This document shows, in pieces, positions 3,416-9,650 of a stretch of DNA of 64,000 nucleotides. The stretch comes from a bacterium (lineage in GTDB: Bacteria > Armatimonadota > Fimbriimonadia > Fimbriimonadales > Fimbriimonadaceae): NCBI GenBank assembly GCA_027483535.1, contig JAIXUN010000002.1, positions 1,302,001-1,366,000 of the forward strand, given 5' to 3'. The stretch's first letter is position 1. Each line of letters begins with the position of its first letter. The translations under genes were made by a program, and so were the position numbers. The notes beneath the pieces were generated by a model. It worked only from the letters and a program-made list of their open reading frames with translations. It was not told the origin of the DNA and did no database searches.

Positions 3416-5539
3416 TTACTGCCGTGCGAGATTCAGGCTGCTCAGCACGAATGTGTACATTTCGGCGACTTCCTTATATCGCTCGTAGCGACCAGAAGCT
3501 CCGCCATGACCTGCATCCATGTTGCATCGCAGGAGCAACGCATTGGAGTCGGTCTTGTTAGCGCGCATCTTGGCCACGTACTTCGCAGGCTCCCAGTACA
3601 TCACCTGCGAGTCGTTGATCGACGTGTTAACCAAGATGTCGGGATAGACCTTGGGCACGATGTTGTCGTAGGGCGAATATTTGATCATCCAGTCGTACTG
3701 CGATTTGACCTTTGGATTGCCCCATTCGACGAACTCGCCCACGGTGAGCGGAAGAGTCTCGTCGAGCATCGTATTGATGACGTCAACGAACGGTACGTCC
3801 AAAATGGCCGCCTTGCAGAGGGTTGGTCGTAAGTTGACCACCGCTCCGATGAGCAAACCTCCGGCGCTGCCACCGTTGATAGCCATTCGGCTCGGCGAGG
3901 TGTAGCCCTTCTTTACCAAGTAGTCGGCACAGTCGATGAAGTCCGTGAAGGTGTTCATCTTCTTGCCCATCTTTCCGTCTTCGTACCACGGCAGTCCGAA
4001 CTCACCGCCGCCACGAATGTGAGCAATCGCAAAGATAAAGCCTCGGTCAAGAAGGCTCAATCGCGAAACGGAGAAGTACGGATCGCTCGGAGCCCCGTAA
4101 CTGCCGTAGGCGTAAAGCATGAGGGGCGTTTTGTTCGAAGGGACGGTCGACTTCTTCCTGACCAACGAGATTGGGACCCGCGTCTTGCCGTCTCGTGCCG
4201 TTGCCCAAACAACGGACGAAACGTAATCCGATGGCTTGTAACCGCCAAGGACAGGTGCCCTCTTGAGCAGCTTCGACTTTCCAGATTTCACCTCGTACTC
4301 GTAAGTGGATTCGGGCAGTCGAAGAGAAGTGAACTCGTACCGAATCGTTTTGGTGTCGTACTCGGGGTTTGCGCCAAGGCTGATCGTGCCTGGTGAGTCC
4401 TCCGTCTTGAGAGGTGTGAGCTTGCCCGTTTTGTAGTCTCGAAGAGCAAGTTGGGTGAAACCACCTTCGCGCTGAGAAACCACCATGAAGTCTTTGAAGC
4501 AAGCAACGCCCGAAAGAACCGACATCGGACGGTGAGGGATCACCTCCTTCCAATTGGAAGCGCCGGGTCGAGAGATCGGTGCCCGAACAAGCCGGAAGTT
4601 CGCTCCCTTGTCGTTGGTGCTGATGAAGAACTCGTTCTTATAAGCGTCGACTTGCAGCTTCGACTTGGTTCCGCGTTTCGCAATGAGCGTCGGGGATCCT
4701 GTCGGCCGATCGAGCGGGAGGTAGTGAACCTCGTTCGTGTCTTTCGAACCGATATCGATGAAGAGGAAGCGGTCGTCGTTAGACTTCCCGATGGAAGTCC
4801 AAAACAGCTCGTCTTTCTCTTCCACCACCAGCTTAGGCTTGGATTTGGAACCGACGGTGTAGCGCCAAACTTTGTCCCAACGCTTCGCCTTATCTTCGGT
4901 GACAAAGAAAATGGTTTTGGAGTCGCTCGCCCAGACCAACTGGTTCGCCTTTCCAATCTCGTCGGAAAGGATTTTTCCAGTTTGAAGATCCTTGATCTTG
5001 ACGTAGTACTCCCGGAATCCGGTGTAGTCGGTGGAGTAAGCCAGGTACCGCGAGTTCGGAGAAACTTCCGTTGCTCCCAGGCTGAAGAACTTCTTGCCCT
5101 TTGCAAGAGCGTTCCCGTCCACGATCACTTCTTCTTTCCCTTGCAGAGACCCCTTCTTTCGACAAATGAGCGGATACTCCTTGCCCTTTTCAAACCGCGA
5201 ATAGTAATAGTAGCCCTTGCTGAGATACGGGACGTCTGAATCGTCTTCCTTGATCCGACCGATGATCTCTTTGTAAAGAGACTCCTTTAGATCAGAGAAC
5301 GGGCTCAGAATCGCGTCCGTGTAGGCGTTTTCGGCGTTAAGGTGGGCGATGGTCTCTTTAGAAGACTTGGTTCGAATCCAATGATAGGGATCGTTTCGCT
5401 TTTGCCCATGCAGAGTGGTGATGTGATCCACCTTCTTGGCAATGGGAGCGTCCGCGATCGTTCCATCGAGCTGACCCGAAGCGAAGGTCGCTAGCGAGCA
5501 GATCGCGAGGATCGTCGCCGGAAAGTTGAATTTAGACAT
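3416..5539 (-). CDS. S9 prolyl-oligopeptidase-family peptidase, oligopeptidase B-like, secreted
   Basis: A 707-residue serine peptidase with an N-terminal seven-bladed propeller region and a C-terminal alpha/beta-hydrolase domain. The nucleophile is Ser558 in NGGSAGGLLIG; the catalytic Asp is in SINDSQVMYWEPAKY and the His in DAGHGGASGRYER. The segment DVPFVDVINTMLDETLPLT and EWGNP are hallmarks of oligopeptidase B, which cuts short peptides after Arg/Lys. Unlike cytoplasmic PtrB it has a signal peptide (MSKFNFPATILAICSLATFASGQ, with SGQ a likely cleavage region), so it should act in the periplasm or outside. Start 5539 is chosen for the signal peptide; an in-frame GTG at 5551 exists. Specificity is inferred from the family. 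Confidence 0.9.
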   Translation of the reverse strand: MSKFNFPATILAICSLATFASGQLDGTIADAPIAKKVDHITTLHGQKRNDPYHWIRTKSSKETIAHLNAENAYTDAILSPFSDLKESLYKEIIGRIKEDDSDVPYLSKGYYYYSRFEKGKEYPLICRKKGSLQGKEEVIVDGNALAKGKKFFSLGATEVSPNSRYLAYSTDYTGFREYYVKIKDLQTGKILSDEIGKANQLVWASDSKTIFFVTEDKAKRWDKVWRYTVGSKSKPKLVVEEKDELFWTSIGKSNDDRFLFIDIGSKDTNEVHYLPLDRPTGSPTLIAKRGTKSKLQVDAYKNEFFISTNDKGANFRLVRAPISRPGASNWKEVIPHRPMSVLSGVACFKDFMVVSQREGGFTQLALRDYKTGKLTPLKTEDSPGTISLGANPEYDTKTIRYEFTSLRLPESTYEYEVKSGKSKLLKRAPVLGGYKPSDYVSSVVWATARDGKTRVPISLVRKKSTVPSNKTPLMLYAYGSYGAPSDPYFSVSRLSLLDRGFIFAIAHIRGGGEFGLPWYEDGKMGKKMNTFTDFIDCADYLVKKGYTSPSRMAINGGSAGGLLIGAVVNLRPTLCKAAILDVPFVDVINTMLDETLPLTVGEFVEWGNPKVKSQYDWMIKYSPYDNIVPKVYPDILVNTSINDSQVMYWEPAKYVAKMRANKTDSNALLLRCNMDAGHGGASGRYERYKEVAEMYTFVLSSLNLARQ

Positions 5540-5610
5540 ACTGGAATCCACAGTTTAGACGGTGTTCGACGGTTCTATAAGAGCCCGCCGACCGGTATCT
5601 TCAAATCCTA

Positions 5611-6300
5611 TTGAACACTCTTCCGTCAGCGCTGATTACCACTTTGGCCCAATGGGAGGTTCCCTGCGAACCCGATGTTTTGGAGCGCTGGTTTGAGTAC
5701 GAGCGAGAACTGTATAGGGTTAACGAAACCACCAACCTAACCCGAGTGCCGCAAAGCGAAGCGTGGGCAAGGCACTTGCTGGACTCGCTGACTCTGCTGC
5801 CGCTGATTCCTGAAGGCGCGGAGGTACTGGATCTTGGCACCGGCCCCGGATTGCCGGGCTTTGCGATCGCCCTGTTTCGACCCGATCTGAAAGTGACCTG
5901 TGTTGACTCAGCAGGGAAGATGATCGGGTTTCTCAAAGAACAGGTCTTGCCCAACCTGACTGCGCACCAAATCCGGATCGAAGAGTGGGACAGTAGGGAG
6001 GAGTTCGACTTCGTCACGGGTCGCGCCCTTGCGCCTCTTCCGGTTCAATTGGAGCTTAGCGCGCACCTTTGCCGAAAAGGCGGGCTGGTCGTGCCCCTTC
6101 GAACCCCTAACGATGATCTCTGGAACGATGCCTTCGCTCAACTTGGAATCACGCTGCGAGAAACTCGAACCGTGCCCGTTCCCAGTGGAGACGGAGAAGA
6201 GATTTTGCGCGTGCTTCCCGTCTACGCAAAGATAAAATCGACACCCGCGAAGTTTCCGCGAACTTGGGTGCAAATGAAGTCTAAGCCCCTTGGCGGGTAG
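5611..6300 (+). CDS. rsmG: 16S rRNA (guanine527-N7)-methyltransferase RsmG
   Basis: A 229-residue SAM-dependent methyltransferase that modifies G527 of 16S rRNA in the 530 loop; loss gives low-level streptomycin resistance in other bacteria. Seen here: N-terminal NETTNLTRV, the HLLDSLTLLP segment, the SAM-binding loop VLDLGTGPGLPGFAIA, VDSAGKMIGFLKE, FDFVTGRALAPL and the C-terminal KFPRTW/KPLGG. The start is TTG 5611, which gives the family N-terminus; no good Shine-Dalgarno is visible. It is not next to the cell-division genes gidA/parAB as in many bacteria; the Pup-ligase homologue follows 46 bases downstream and may be co-transcribed. Confidence 0.93.
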   Translation: MNTLPSALITTLAQWEVPCEPDVLERWFEYERELYRVNETTNLTRVPQSEAWARHLLDSLTLLPLIPEGAEVLDLGTGPGLPGFAIALFRPDLKVTCVDSAGKMIGFLKEQVLPNLTAHQIRIEEWDSREEFDFVTGRALAPLPVQLELSAHLCRKGGLVVPLRTPNDDLWNDAFAQLGITLRETRTVPVPSGDGEEILRVLPVYAKIKSTPAKFPRTWVQMKSKPLGG

Positions 6301-6346
6301 CCAAATGCGGTTCAAAAACGTCTAAACGGCGTAGATAGGAACATTC

Positions 6347-7825
6347 ATGCAAAAGCCCCACGAGCGGATCTTTGGAGTCGAGACGGAATTCGGCTGCCTA
6401 GTAGCTGATGAGACGCTTGGAAATCCGGCCGGGGCGGTTGAGGCGATCAAAGACTACGCGTTTTACGACATGAAGGTCGGAGCGCTGGATCTGCACTCTC
6501 GCGATGAAGTCTTTGAGCCTGCAGAATCGGGTGGGTTCCTCATCAATGGCGCCCGGCTTTACATCGATGCGGTCGGGTCTCACTTGGAGTACGCCACCGC
6601 CGAGTGTCGGTCGATCAAGGACCTGATCGCAAACGATCGAGCGGGACACAAACTCATCGTACGTGCGCTACGCGAACTGGGCCTCGACGATTCGATCAGC
6701 GTCTACAACAACTCGGTGGACCACTTCGGTGGACACACCTTTGGCTGTCACGAGAACTATCTGGTGAAGGCAGATGAAGAGTTGCTTGGGGGGCGAATCG
6801 ACCTCCTTTATCCGTTCCTTGTGACCCGGCAAATCTTCGCCGGAGTTGGGCGAGTCGGGGGCCATGTCCTCGTCTCCGGATTCCGACCTTCCTATCAGGA
6901 GATGGTTGAGAACCCCATCGACTACATCTGGGTGAGCAACGTTTACAGCGTGATCCCCGATCCCGACGTCAAGTTTCAGCTTTCCCAAAGGGCCGACCAC
7001 ATTCTGAAAACTGTCGCCTCAAGGGTGCGATTCAATCGGGCGCTCATCAATCCCAAGTGGGAGACTTTCTATTCCTACAATGGAATGACCCGCTTCCACG
7101 TGCTGTTCGGAGAGAGCAATCAAAACGAATACGCCTACGCGTTGAAGGTGGGCACCACCCGGCTTGCAATTAGAACTTGTGAAGACGGGATCGCGCCATA
7201 CGACGTTCAGCTCTCTTCGCCGCTCATCGCAATGCGACAGATTTCGCGCGACGAGAGCTATCGCTGGCTCTCCGAGCGTTTGATGGGCGGCACGATCTCT
7301 GCCATTGATGTTCAACGCGCTTACTTAGAGGTGGCTCAGGTTTACCGAGGCGAATCGGAGGAAACCGATTGGGTCCTTAACGAGTGGGAGGCCACCTTGA
7401 ACGGTCTGGAGAAAGACCCGATGGAGATGGGCGATCGTTTGGACTGGGTCGCCAAGAAGAAGATTGTCGAGAGCTACATGGAGTCGGAAAAGTTGGATTG
7501 GTCGGATGACGCTCTCCACTCCGTCGATCTCGAGTATCACAACATCAACCCGGAGCTCTCCCTCTATGGTGCCTGGTGCGAGATGCACCCGGTTCGCAAG
7601 ATGGTTTCGGAGCTCGATGTGACCATGGCGGTCACCGACCCCCCAGAGGACACTCGTGCAAAGGGCCGAGCCAAGCTGATCGAGAAAATTCTCGCAAGGA
7701 AGCGCCCCGGACAGTACGCCATCGACTGGAACGGTGTGCAGTACGACAAGGCACGCTATGTCGAAATGAACGACCCGTTCGAAACCTACGAGAAGGTTCA
7801 GGATCAGTGGGGCAACGAAATCTGA
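6347..7825 (+). CDS. Pup--protein ligase / Pup deamidase family protein (PafA/Dop-like)
   Basis: A 492-residue member of the carboxylate-amine-ligase-fold family of PafA and Dop, which join or remove the small modifier Pup on lysines of target proteins. The ATP/Mg site is seen at Glu12 and Glu14 in IFGVETEFG. The catalytic Asp is Asp74 in NGARLYIDAVGSHLEYATAE. NNSVDHFGGHTFGCHENYL and YPFLVTRQIFAGVG follow, as in PafA. The central LKVGTTRLAI and late DLEYHNI and AVTDPPEDTRA also match the family. The spacing from the first Glu to the catalytic Asp has no long Dop-loop, and the VGSH context favours the ligase PafA over Dop. No Pup, UBact, proteasome subunit or Mpa ATPase gene lies in the window. 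Confidence 0.88.
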   Translation: MQKPHERIFGVETEFGCLVADETLGNPAGAVEAIKDYAFYDMKVGALDLHSRDEVFEPAESGGFLINGARLYIDAVGSHLEYATAECRSIKDLIANDRAGHKLIVRALRELGLDDSISVYNNSVDHFGGHTFGCHENYLVKADEELLGGRIDLLYPFLVTRQIFAGVGRVGGHVLVSGFRPSYQEMVENPIDYIWVSNVYSVIPDPDVKFQLSQRADHILKTVASRVRFNRALINPKWETFYSYNGMTRFHVLFGESNQNEYAYALKVGTTRLAIRTCEDGIAPYDVQLSSPLIAMRQISRDESYRWLSERLMGGTISAIDVQRAYLEVAQVYRGESEETDWVLNEWEATLNGLEKDPMEMGDRLDWVAKKKIVESYMESEKLDWSDDALHSVDLEYHNINPELSLYGAWCEMHPVRKMVSELDVTMAVTDPPEDTRAKGRAKLIEKILARKRPGQYAIDWNGVQYDKARYVEMNDPFETYEKVQDQWGNEI

Positions 7826-7844
7826 TCGCTCAACAAGCGATCAG
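7822..7844. terminator. Hairpin shared by two convergent gene ends
   Basis: A perfect 9-base-pair stem (7822-7830 with 7836-7844) has a 5-base loop. It contains the stop codon of the PafA/Dop-like gene in one arm and overlaps the stop of ispH in the other. There is no long T tract, so it may be an mRNA 3'-end stabiliser or a weak bidirectional terminator. Confidence 0.5.
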
Positions 7845-8788
7845 GATTTCGCCATTGCTAACTGAATCAAGTCGCGAGAGGGCTTGAACGTTACGTCCTC
7901 TCGGATCGTCTCCAATACCTCGACGCTCACATCGGTGCGTCCCTTAATGAGCTCGCCAATGATCGCCTCGACCAAAACTTCAGGCGTGGATGCGCCCGAC
8001 GAGATTCCGACCGTCTTGTAATCGGTCTTCCATTCCGCCTTTACTTCCTCCGGCGACATGAGCAGGTGAGCCTCGGTGCCGAGTTGCTCGGCCACTTCGC
8101 GCAGGCGGTTGCTGTTCGAAGAGGTTGTGGAGCCAACGACGAGAATCAGATCGGACTGCTGGGCGAGATCTCGGATCGCCATTTGGCGGTTGGTGGTCGC
8201 GTAGCAGATGTCGCCTTTGGGTGGCTTTTCGATGTGCGGGAATCGGCGCTCCAAAACGGAGAGAGTTGCGTTAACCTCGTCTACGCTCAGCGTCGTCTGG
8301 GTGAGAACGGCCAATTTTTCGTAGTGAGGGAGGTCAAGTTTCTCCGCGTCCTCGGGCGTTTCGACAAGAACCATTCGGTCCGGTGCCTCACCCATCGTCC
8401 CCTCTGCTTCCACGTGACCCTCGTGTCCGATGTAGACCATGAAGTAGCCCTTGGCGGCGTAGTGCTTGGCCTCGTTGTGGACCTTGGTGACGAGCGGGCA
8501 GGTGGCGTCGATGATTGTGAGGTTGCGCTCTTTGCTTTGTCTGCGCACTTCTGGAGAAACGCCGTGGGCGGAATAGACCACCACCGAGCCAGAAGGGATG
8601 TCGTCGATATCCTCGACAAAAATCACTCCGCGAGACTCGAAACTCTTGACGACCCATTCGTTGTGGACGATCGCGTGGCGTACGTAAAGCGGCGCGCCAT
8701 GAATCTTGAGGGCAAGGTCTACAACCTCGATTGCGTAGGCGACGCCTGCGCAGAAGCCTCTGGGAGCGGCAAGAAGGATTCGATCCAC
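7841..8788 (-). CDS. ispH: 4-hydroxy-3-methylbut-2-enyl diphosphate reductase (IspH)
   Basis: A 315-residue iron-sulfur enzyme, the last step of the MEP pathway, making IPP and DMAPP from HMBPP. The three cluster cysteines are Cys13 (APRGFCAGV), Cys97 (DATCPLVTKVH) and Cys195 (DICYATTNRQ). SAHGVSPEV and VVGSTTSSNSNRLREVA are further family motifs. GTG 8788 is preferred over the longer open frame from 8959: it gives the normal family N-terminus, lies 6 bases after TACACT, and the extra 57 residues look like non-coding translation. No other MEP gene is in the window. Confidence 0.95.
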   Translation of the reverse strand: MDRILLAAPRGFCAGVAYAIEVVDLALKIHGAPLYVRHAIVHNEWVVKSFESRGVIFVEDIDDIPSGSVVVYSAHGVSPEVRRQSKERNLTIIDATCPLVTKVHNEAKHYAAKGYFMVYIGHEGHVEAEGTMGEAPDRMVLVETPEDAEKLDLPHYEKLAVLTQTTLSVDEVNATLSVLERRFPHIEKPPKGDICYATTNRQMAIRDLAQQSDLILVVGSTTSSNSNRLREVAEQLGTEAHLLMSPEEVKAEWKTDYKTVGISSGASTPEVLVEAIIGELIKGRTDVSVEVLETIREDVTFKPSRDLIQLAMAKS

Positions 8789-8794
8789 GATTAA

Positions 8795-8800
8795 AGTGTA
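8795..8800 (-). promoter_or_regulatory. -10 hexamer for a leaderless ispH transcript
   Basis: TACACT stands six bases before the GTG at 8788. No Shine-Dalgarno is visible, so a leaderless mRNA is likely. Confidence 0.45.
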
Positions 8801-8855
8801 TCTAACCTTCGAGAACGAAAAACGTTGCGAACACCTTCTGTTGGGGCAGATCGAT

Positions 8856-9650
8856 CTAGATGAGCGATTGTCCGCCGTCGACAAACAACTCGGTCCCGGT
8901 GATGTGGTCGGCCGCATCGGAAGCAAGGAAAAGAATCGCCTTCGCCACCTGATCCGCATCGGCGGGTTCCCAGCCCGTTAATGGAATGTTGCCTTCCGGA
9001 TATTTGCGCGGCACTCCAACGGGGCGATCGCTCAACCAAGTGGTGCTGTCGCCGATGTTGGTTTTCACCCCGCCCGGACAAACCGTGTTGACTCGAATAC
9101 GGAACGGTCCTAGTTCGTGGGCGAGCATCTTCGAGAGAGCGGCTTGACCCGCTTTGCTCACGGCGTACACCGAAAGACCCCCGCCTCCGAAGTAACGGGT
9201 TCCATTGATGGAGGAGGTGATCACAATGGACCCACCACGCTCCTTCATGTGCGGCACCGCAGCTTGCACGCTGATGAACGTGCCTCGAAGGTTGATGTTC
9301 ATCGTGCGATCGAACTCTTCGATAGGGATTTGTTCGAGGGCTCCCCAAAGCCCGTTGATCCCCGCGTTCGCGACCAGGATGTCGAGTCGTCCGAGTTCGG
9401 TGACCACATTGTCGATAGCCGATTTATGTGCCTCAGCGTCGGCGACATCGACTTCCCATGCTCTTGCCGAGCCACCGTGACGATGAATCTCCGCAACAAC
9501 GTCGTTCGCGCCAACGTCGTTCCGGTCGAGAATTGCCACTACCGCGCCCTGGGCCGCAAGGTGGCAAGCGGTCGCCCGCCCAATGCCCGATGCGCCTCCG
9601 GTAACGATGGCGACGCGGCCTTCCAGACTCAAAAAATTTGGGGTGATCAT
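8856..9650 (-). CDS. Short-chain dehydrogenase/reductase (SDR)
   Basis: A 264-residue classical SDR, an NAD(P)-dependent oxidoreductase with a Rossmann fold. Seen are TGGASGIG for cofactor binding, LVANAGING, the catalytic Ser-Tyr-Lys in SSINGTRY and YAVSKAGQ, NTVCPGGVKT, and the C-terminal FVDGGQSLI that helps form the tetramer. Asp42 after the second strand (AILDRND) suggests NAD(H) preference. The substrate is unknown. The gene is upstream of ispH on the same strand, 67 bases away, and ispH has its own promoter-like box, so they need not be one unit. Confidence 0.88.
   Translation of the reverse strand: MITPNFLSLEGRVAIVTGGASGIGRATACHLAAQGAVVAILDRNDVGANDVVAEIHRHGGSARAWEVDVADAEAHKSAIDNVVTELGRLDILVANAGINGLWGALEQIPIEEFDRTMNINLRGTFISVQAAVPHMKERGGSIVITSSINGTRYFGGGGLSVYAVSKAGQAALSKMLAHELGPFRIRVNTVCPGGVKTNIGDSTTWLSDRPVGVPRKYPEGNIPLTGWEPADADQVAKAILFLASDAADHITGTELFVDGGQSLI

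Follow-up and report, generated by a model that had tools for sequence, protein, structure and literature searches.

A probable UBact ligase gene set apart from its conjugation and proteasome partners in a Fimbriimonadales genome

A PafA/Dop-family gene between rsmG and ispH

The analyzed stretch of DNA (the window) comprises 64,000 nucleotides of a Fimbriimonadaceae genome assembly of 3.77 Mb in 4 contigs, which is 99.07% complete with 0.05% contamination. It contains an open reading frame that starts with ATG and encodes 492 residues without an internal stop (Table 1). The translated protein matches the PF03136 (Pup_ligase) profile from position 1 to 440 of 441 (395.8 bits, E 3.5e-118, gathering cut-off 25), and no other Pfam match is found at E values up to 1. 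A previous sequence-only reading had placed the gene in the PafA/Dop family, in agreement with this full-length match. The residues it pointed out are in place: Glu12 and Glu14, Asp74, and the NGARLYID and GCHENYL motifs. The two glutamates belong to the GhExE ATP/metal motif (PMC2588565), and together with D74 they do not vary in any of 17 sequences at the order level and 41 at the phylum level. One extra residue, A75, directly follows Asp74 and is succeeded by VGSH. Residues 173-208 form a region that exceeds the corresponding part of actinobacterial PafA and Dop by ~20 to 30 residues.

The reported position between rsmG and ispH is correct, and no modifier, proteasome or ATPase gene lies beside the PafA/Dop-family gene within the window. 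The rsmG gene is also found near pafA in one relative locus (L118). Elsewhere in the window, two similar, adjacent small lipoprotein-like reading frames (1240-1704 and 1778-2233, - strand) both contain GCSKPSVEGKWES and are likely the result of a tandem duplication.

Table 1 Positions in the window of the putative ligase gene, its sequence features and its neighbors
Feature	Position	Strand	Basis
Putative pafA-like UBact ligase gene	6347..7825	+	PF03136 match, NCBIfam scores, orthologues in UBact operons
E12 and E14 codons, GhExE ATP/metal motif (GVETE)	6380..6388	+	Invariant in 41 sequences
Catalytic Asp74 codon (= C. glutamicum PafA D64)	6566..6568	+	Alignment to 4b0t and 4bjr
GCHENYL core motif, residues 133-139	6743..6763	+	Translation, alignment
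Region with clade-specific insert, residues 173-208, between strand GRVGG and LSQRADH	6863..6970	+	Alignment
Alpha-loop, residues 218-231 (HILKTVASRVRFNR)	6998..7039	+	Alignment against Table 1 of PMC7947786
N235-P-K-W238, replacing NTRD(EPHAD)	7049..7060	+	K237 aligned with R207 of C. glutamicum PafA
Terminator-like hairpin where pafA and ispH converge	7822..7844		Pattern scan only
rsmG, upstream neighbor, outside the system	5611..6300	+	Translation
ispH, downstream neighbor, outside the system; marks relocated pafA site	7841..8959	-	Relative loci

Active-site positions point to a ligase

The NCBIfam models score the protein at 286.5 bits for PafA (TIGR03686) and 256.1 bits for Dop (TIGR03688), in both cases below the curated equivalog cut-offs of 551.3 and 492.3, respectively. 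An orthologue located in a UBact operon likewise stays under the TIGR03686 cut-off, with 307.4 bits. Since both scores are well below the curated values, assignment within the family needs other evidence.

Overall similarity is highest to Dop (4b0r, 5lrt, 7oyh, 9cku), in sequence (213 bits against solved Dop, 173 bits against solved PafA) as well as in fold, where the predicted model (mean pLDDT 86.7) gives Z 46 to Dop and Z 41 and 37 to PafA. Together with a best tree that unites the UBact-type PafA and UBact-type Dop groups, though at a support of only 74/60, this resemblance is what speaks for the protein being a second depupylase/deamidase instead of a ligase. The positions that separate the two enzymes (Hecht and colleagues, Table 1, PMC7947786) give a different picture. 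Of 20 such positions that could be compared in an alignment, the protein has the PafA state at 10 (51, 54, 65, 66, 67, 72, 74, 188, 195 and 439 in C. glutamicum numbering), the Dop state at 0 and neither state at 9 (50, 63, 190, 191, 192, 194, 196, 199 and 200); the remaining position, 73, is uninformative because Ac Dop also has Thr. A75 shifts one alignment column, V76 being taken as the V65 equivalent, and position 74 is a weak column, with Pro in most relatives as in Nonomuraea PafA.

The protein shares with actinomycetotal PafA (4b0t, 4bjr) the GhExE motif, the catalytic Asp, the VGSH..EYAT strand, the equivalents of H188 and S195, and the lack of a long Dop-loop. It reads DAVGSHLEY and NPKWETFYS where Dop has D-H-[AG]-H-P-E-Y and NTRDEPHAD, so that none of the three Dop marks, the D-H-[AG]-H strand after the catalytic Asp, the long Dop-loop and NTRDEPHAD, is present. 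The arginine that holds the phosphate in Dop (R227, the equivalent of C. glutamicum PafA R207; PMC8599861) is a lysine. On these active-site positions, we rejected a Dop identity drawn from overall similarity.

A profile search of the genome detected a second PF03136 protein at positions 7959-9446 of contig 3, adjoining UBact. This paralogue is Dop-type (317 versus 226 bits) and carries the Dop strand (DHGHPEY), an insert of Dop-loop length and NTRDEPHAD. With ligase-type markers in one protein and Dop marks in the other, the most plausible reading is that the window gene codes for the ligase and that the contig 3 paralogue is Dop, and a second Dop encoded in the window appears improbable.

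The partner genes are encoded at other sites of the genome

UBact has been reported in Armatimonadota. The UBact conjugation-proteasome system (PF20513, NF033388) was reportedly described by Lehmann and colleagues in 2017. The sequence-only reading regarded the gene as an orphan whose partner must be elsewhere or which has another substrate, and proposed a genome-wide search for a protein of 50-90 residues ending in Gly-Gln or Gly-Glu, for proteasome subunits and for an Mpa-like AAA ATPase. The first alternative is correct, as all of these are encoded in the genome. On contig 3, dop overlaps by 4 bases with a gene for a 58-residue UBact that ends in RSGQ (PF20513, 77.8 bits, cut-off 27.8; NF033388, 77.7 bits, cut-off 35), and the gene for the proteasome beta subunit (PrcB) follows UBact after a 2-base gap. 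A proteasome alpha-type protein (PrcA) is encoded on contig 1 at 2157063-2157719, with a TIGR03691 score of 61 bits that is under the cut-off of 139; its orthologues come after prcB in operons. An ARC/Mpa-type ATPase at 318205-319938 of the same contig has both proteasomal-ATPase OB domains and scores 438 bits against TIGR03689 (cut-off 505). The window gene is 849 kb from prcA and 990 kb from the ATPase gene, and dop-UBact-prcB lies on a different contig.

The modifier is of the UBact kind and not Pup: no match to PF05639 was found in the genome, while the C. glutamicum control was positive in the same search. We rejected HslV as the identity of the contig 1 alpha hit, as the bacterial 20S alpha model is the only NCBIfam model to match (with the sub-threshold score above) and the orthologues adjoin prcB in operons. 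Contamination as the source of contig 3 was rejected as well, given the completeness and low contamination of the assembly and the same split in single-contig relatives.

Actinobacterial Mpa has a GQYL tail. The ARC-type ATPase at L007:1363-3099 ends in EEVVRKSIV and not in GQYL, and the docking of an ATPase with this tail to the 20S particle may differ.

A probably once-joined cluster in stages of separation

In other Armatimonadota classes, pafA orthologues (~50-54% identity) close a cluster of the order [ARC-]dop-UBact-prcB-prcA-pafA, with the ATPase missing from some loci. The same order, with pafA last, is found in records titled Candidatus Bipolaricaulota, Candidatus Acetothermia and Candidatus Fraserbacteria. 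Ligase orthologues are co-located with UBact in L085-L087, most of L131-L150 and many of L151-L224. Among the Fimbriimonadales genomes fetched, three (G107, G109 and G111) retain an intact dop-UBact-prcB-prcA-pafA cluster; the ATPase is at a separate site in the Fimbriimonadales genomes checked, even in these three. In the loci read from the family of the window genome, only dop-UBact-prcB is still joined. Within Fimbriimonadales, ispH is a common neighbor of pafA, which it flanks in nine additional loci representing about eight genomes (L097, L099, L100, L103, L218, L219, L223, L228 and L229).

The single-contig genomes G015, G012, G060, G069 and G070 are split likewise, and their pafA lies 263-2184 kb away from UBact. 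Gaps in the assemblies therefore do not account for the scattering. We infer that the ancestral cluster broke up stepwise in Fimbriimonadales, a direction suggested by how widely the joined order occurs. As in the UBact system, the set comprises a UBact with a GQ or GE terminus, a pair of PF03136 enzymes, the subunits PrcA and PrcB, and an ARC-type ATPase; the difference is that the Fimbriimonadales genes occupy up to four loci, whereas most other members fetched have a single cluster.

Several genomes contain more than one UBact match. In L136 (G120:C4), two adjacent, divergent UBact genes at 8103-8288 and 8251-8442 (- strand) end in ARRYEQRSGQ and AKRYRQRSGQ, and two or three matches are also present in G114, G121, G135 and G150. 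This hints at UBact paralogues, possibly with different roles.

Among 113 Fimbriimonadales genomes, PF03136 is found in 109, UBact in 100, PrcA in 97 and ARC in 104. PF03136 is absent from three of the 88 good genomes (G067, G068 and G112), which also have no UBact, PrcA or ARC, apparently through loss of the whole system. G067 and G068 belong to one genus, with 1.5-Mb genomes that are ~97% complete, and the joint absences thus amount to about two independent losses. Hypergeometric values for co-occurrence are ~4e-5 to 9e-5, a calculation that ignores the relatedness of the genomes.

These observations bear on the proposal of a true orphan ligase, kept after loss of its modifier and acting with a substrate other than UBact. 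The window without a partner gene and a substrate-recognition patch unlike that of Pup ligases would fit it. The genome, however, encodes UBact, Dop, PrcA, PrcB and ARC, the orthologues in UBact operons of related lineages share the NPKW motif, and the good genomes without PF03136 also have no UBact, PrcA or ARC. The orphan status claimed at first has to be given up, along with the suggestion of another substrate, and we regard such an enzyme as highly improbable. The appearance of an orphan arises because a once-joined gene set appears to have been scattered around the genome in this bacterial group. An identity outside the PafA/Dop family, as a glutamate-cysteine ligase-like or GatB-like protein, is hardly conceivable, since the common carboxylate-amine ligase fold superfamily (PMC2588565) is all that speaks for it, while PF03136 is the sole Pfam match and the model has Z 46 and 41 to Dop and PafA but only 22 to YbdK and 15-16 to gamma-glutamylcysteine synthetases.

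A divergent substrate-facing loop

Major differences from actinomycetotal PafA can be observed at the substrate-facing surface. Besides the extra residue after the catalytic Asp and the insert before the alpha-loop, NPKW takes the place of NTRDEPHAD, and the alpha-loop resembles that of Pup ligases only at H218 and S225. R207 of C. glutamicum PafA, the Arg of NTRD, is the main substrate-recognition residue; pupylation of FabD in vitro and formation of the pupylome in vivo depend on it, whereas phospho-Pup is formed without it (PMC10465538). Its basic patch is gone in the window protein except for K237 (R207), with A142, T248, G463 and Q465 at the positions of R137, R218, R442 and K444.

NP[KR] is found in 110/110 PafA-type relatives, 101 of which have NPKW, and Lys occupies the R207 position in 108 of the 110. 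In other UBact phyla, outside the relatives counted (Nitrospirota, Verrucomicrobiota), NPKW may or may not apply. In Dop-type relatives, N[TSA]RD is present in 94 of 97, the other 3 not being scored. A loss of function through the missing NTRDEPHAD is unsupported, the change being fixed in all 110 relatives, intact operons included. Since both the catalytic residues and the motif are preserved, the NPKW loop and the missing basic patch look like a different substrate surface and not like decay. The divergent alpha-loop and K237 would then change the choice of substrate.

Origin of the UBact ligases

In a tree of 48 rows, the UBact-type ligases, actinobacterial PafA and actinobacterial Dop form well-supported groups, and the UBact-type Dop group is weaker (85/85). 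A grouping of UBact-type and Pup-type ligases against all Dop is absent from the best tree and costs 5.2 log-likelihood units, but it is not rejected (p-AU 0.40). UBact ligases grouped with actinobacterial Dop alone were rejected (p-AU 0.006). The actinobacterial references are few: a single Nonomuraea record, a record with a phage label and the alignments of solved structures. With this small sampling and the available signal, the tree is compatible with one as well as with two duplications at the origin of UBact and Pup ligases.

It is possible, although we consider it unlikely, that UBact ligases and Pup ligases go back to two separate duplications, the former having descended from a Dop-like ancestor. 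If so, two bacterial ubiquitin-like ligases would have evolved independently on one hydrolase/ligase scaffold, and the R137/R207/R218 patch would be replaced as substrate surface by the NPKW loop, the clade insert and the conserved alpha-loop residues R226, R228 and F229.

Two of the reference records deserve comment. MT835496.1 (L232, positions 4702-9395), labelled 'Bacteriophage sp.', carries a 1021-residue reading frame that matches both ARC and Dop, and in addition separate genes for PafA and for a Pup with a GGQ end. It is probably mislabelled actinobacterial DNA; the ARC-Dop fusion would be notable if real. NZ_LT559118.1 (L231), the 11.85-Mb 'plasmid I' of Nonomuraea gerenzanensis, contains a full Pup-proteasome locus and, judged on its size, looks like a chromosome filed as a plasmid.

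A probable complete UBact pathway in Fimbriimonadales

Very probably, the product of the window gene is the ligase of a UBact conjugation-proteasome system that is complete but has its genes spread over the genome. The basis is the presence of all parts, the intact catalytic residues, the ligase-type markers, the shared operon ancestry and the joint loss. Against a ligase stand the greater overall closeness to solved Dop, a score far below the PafA equivalog cut-off, a tree that does not show it grouping with Pup ligases, the largely missing basic patch and the location of the partners at other loci. On sequence comparison, the protein can be described as a UBact-type PafA, a kind already known, with an unusually divergent substrate-facing loop.

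The chemistry and order of steps in the pathway can be proposed as follows. First, the contig 3 Dop would convert the C-terminal Gln of the UBact sequence (...RSGQ) to Glu by deamidation. Using ATP, the window enzyme would then form a gamma-glutamyl phosphate on this Glu, and Asp74 would assist the attack of a substrate lysine on it, resulting in an isopeptide-linked UBact tag. Tagged proteins would be unfolded by the ARC ATPase into the 20S particle of PrcA and PrcB and degraded there, and Dop may be able to take the tags off.

The analysis removes a false orphan and places the full UBact-proteasome pathway in Fimbriimonadales, where the cluster appears to be coming apart in stages and seems to have been lost jointly in a few genomes. 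With the key substrate arginine of Pup ligases and its motif replaced throughout the lineage, the question arises how a UBact ligase picks its targets. A second question is whether the PafA/Dop scaffold gave rise to ligase activity on one occasion or on two.
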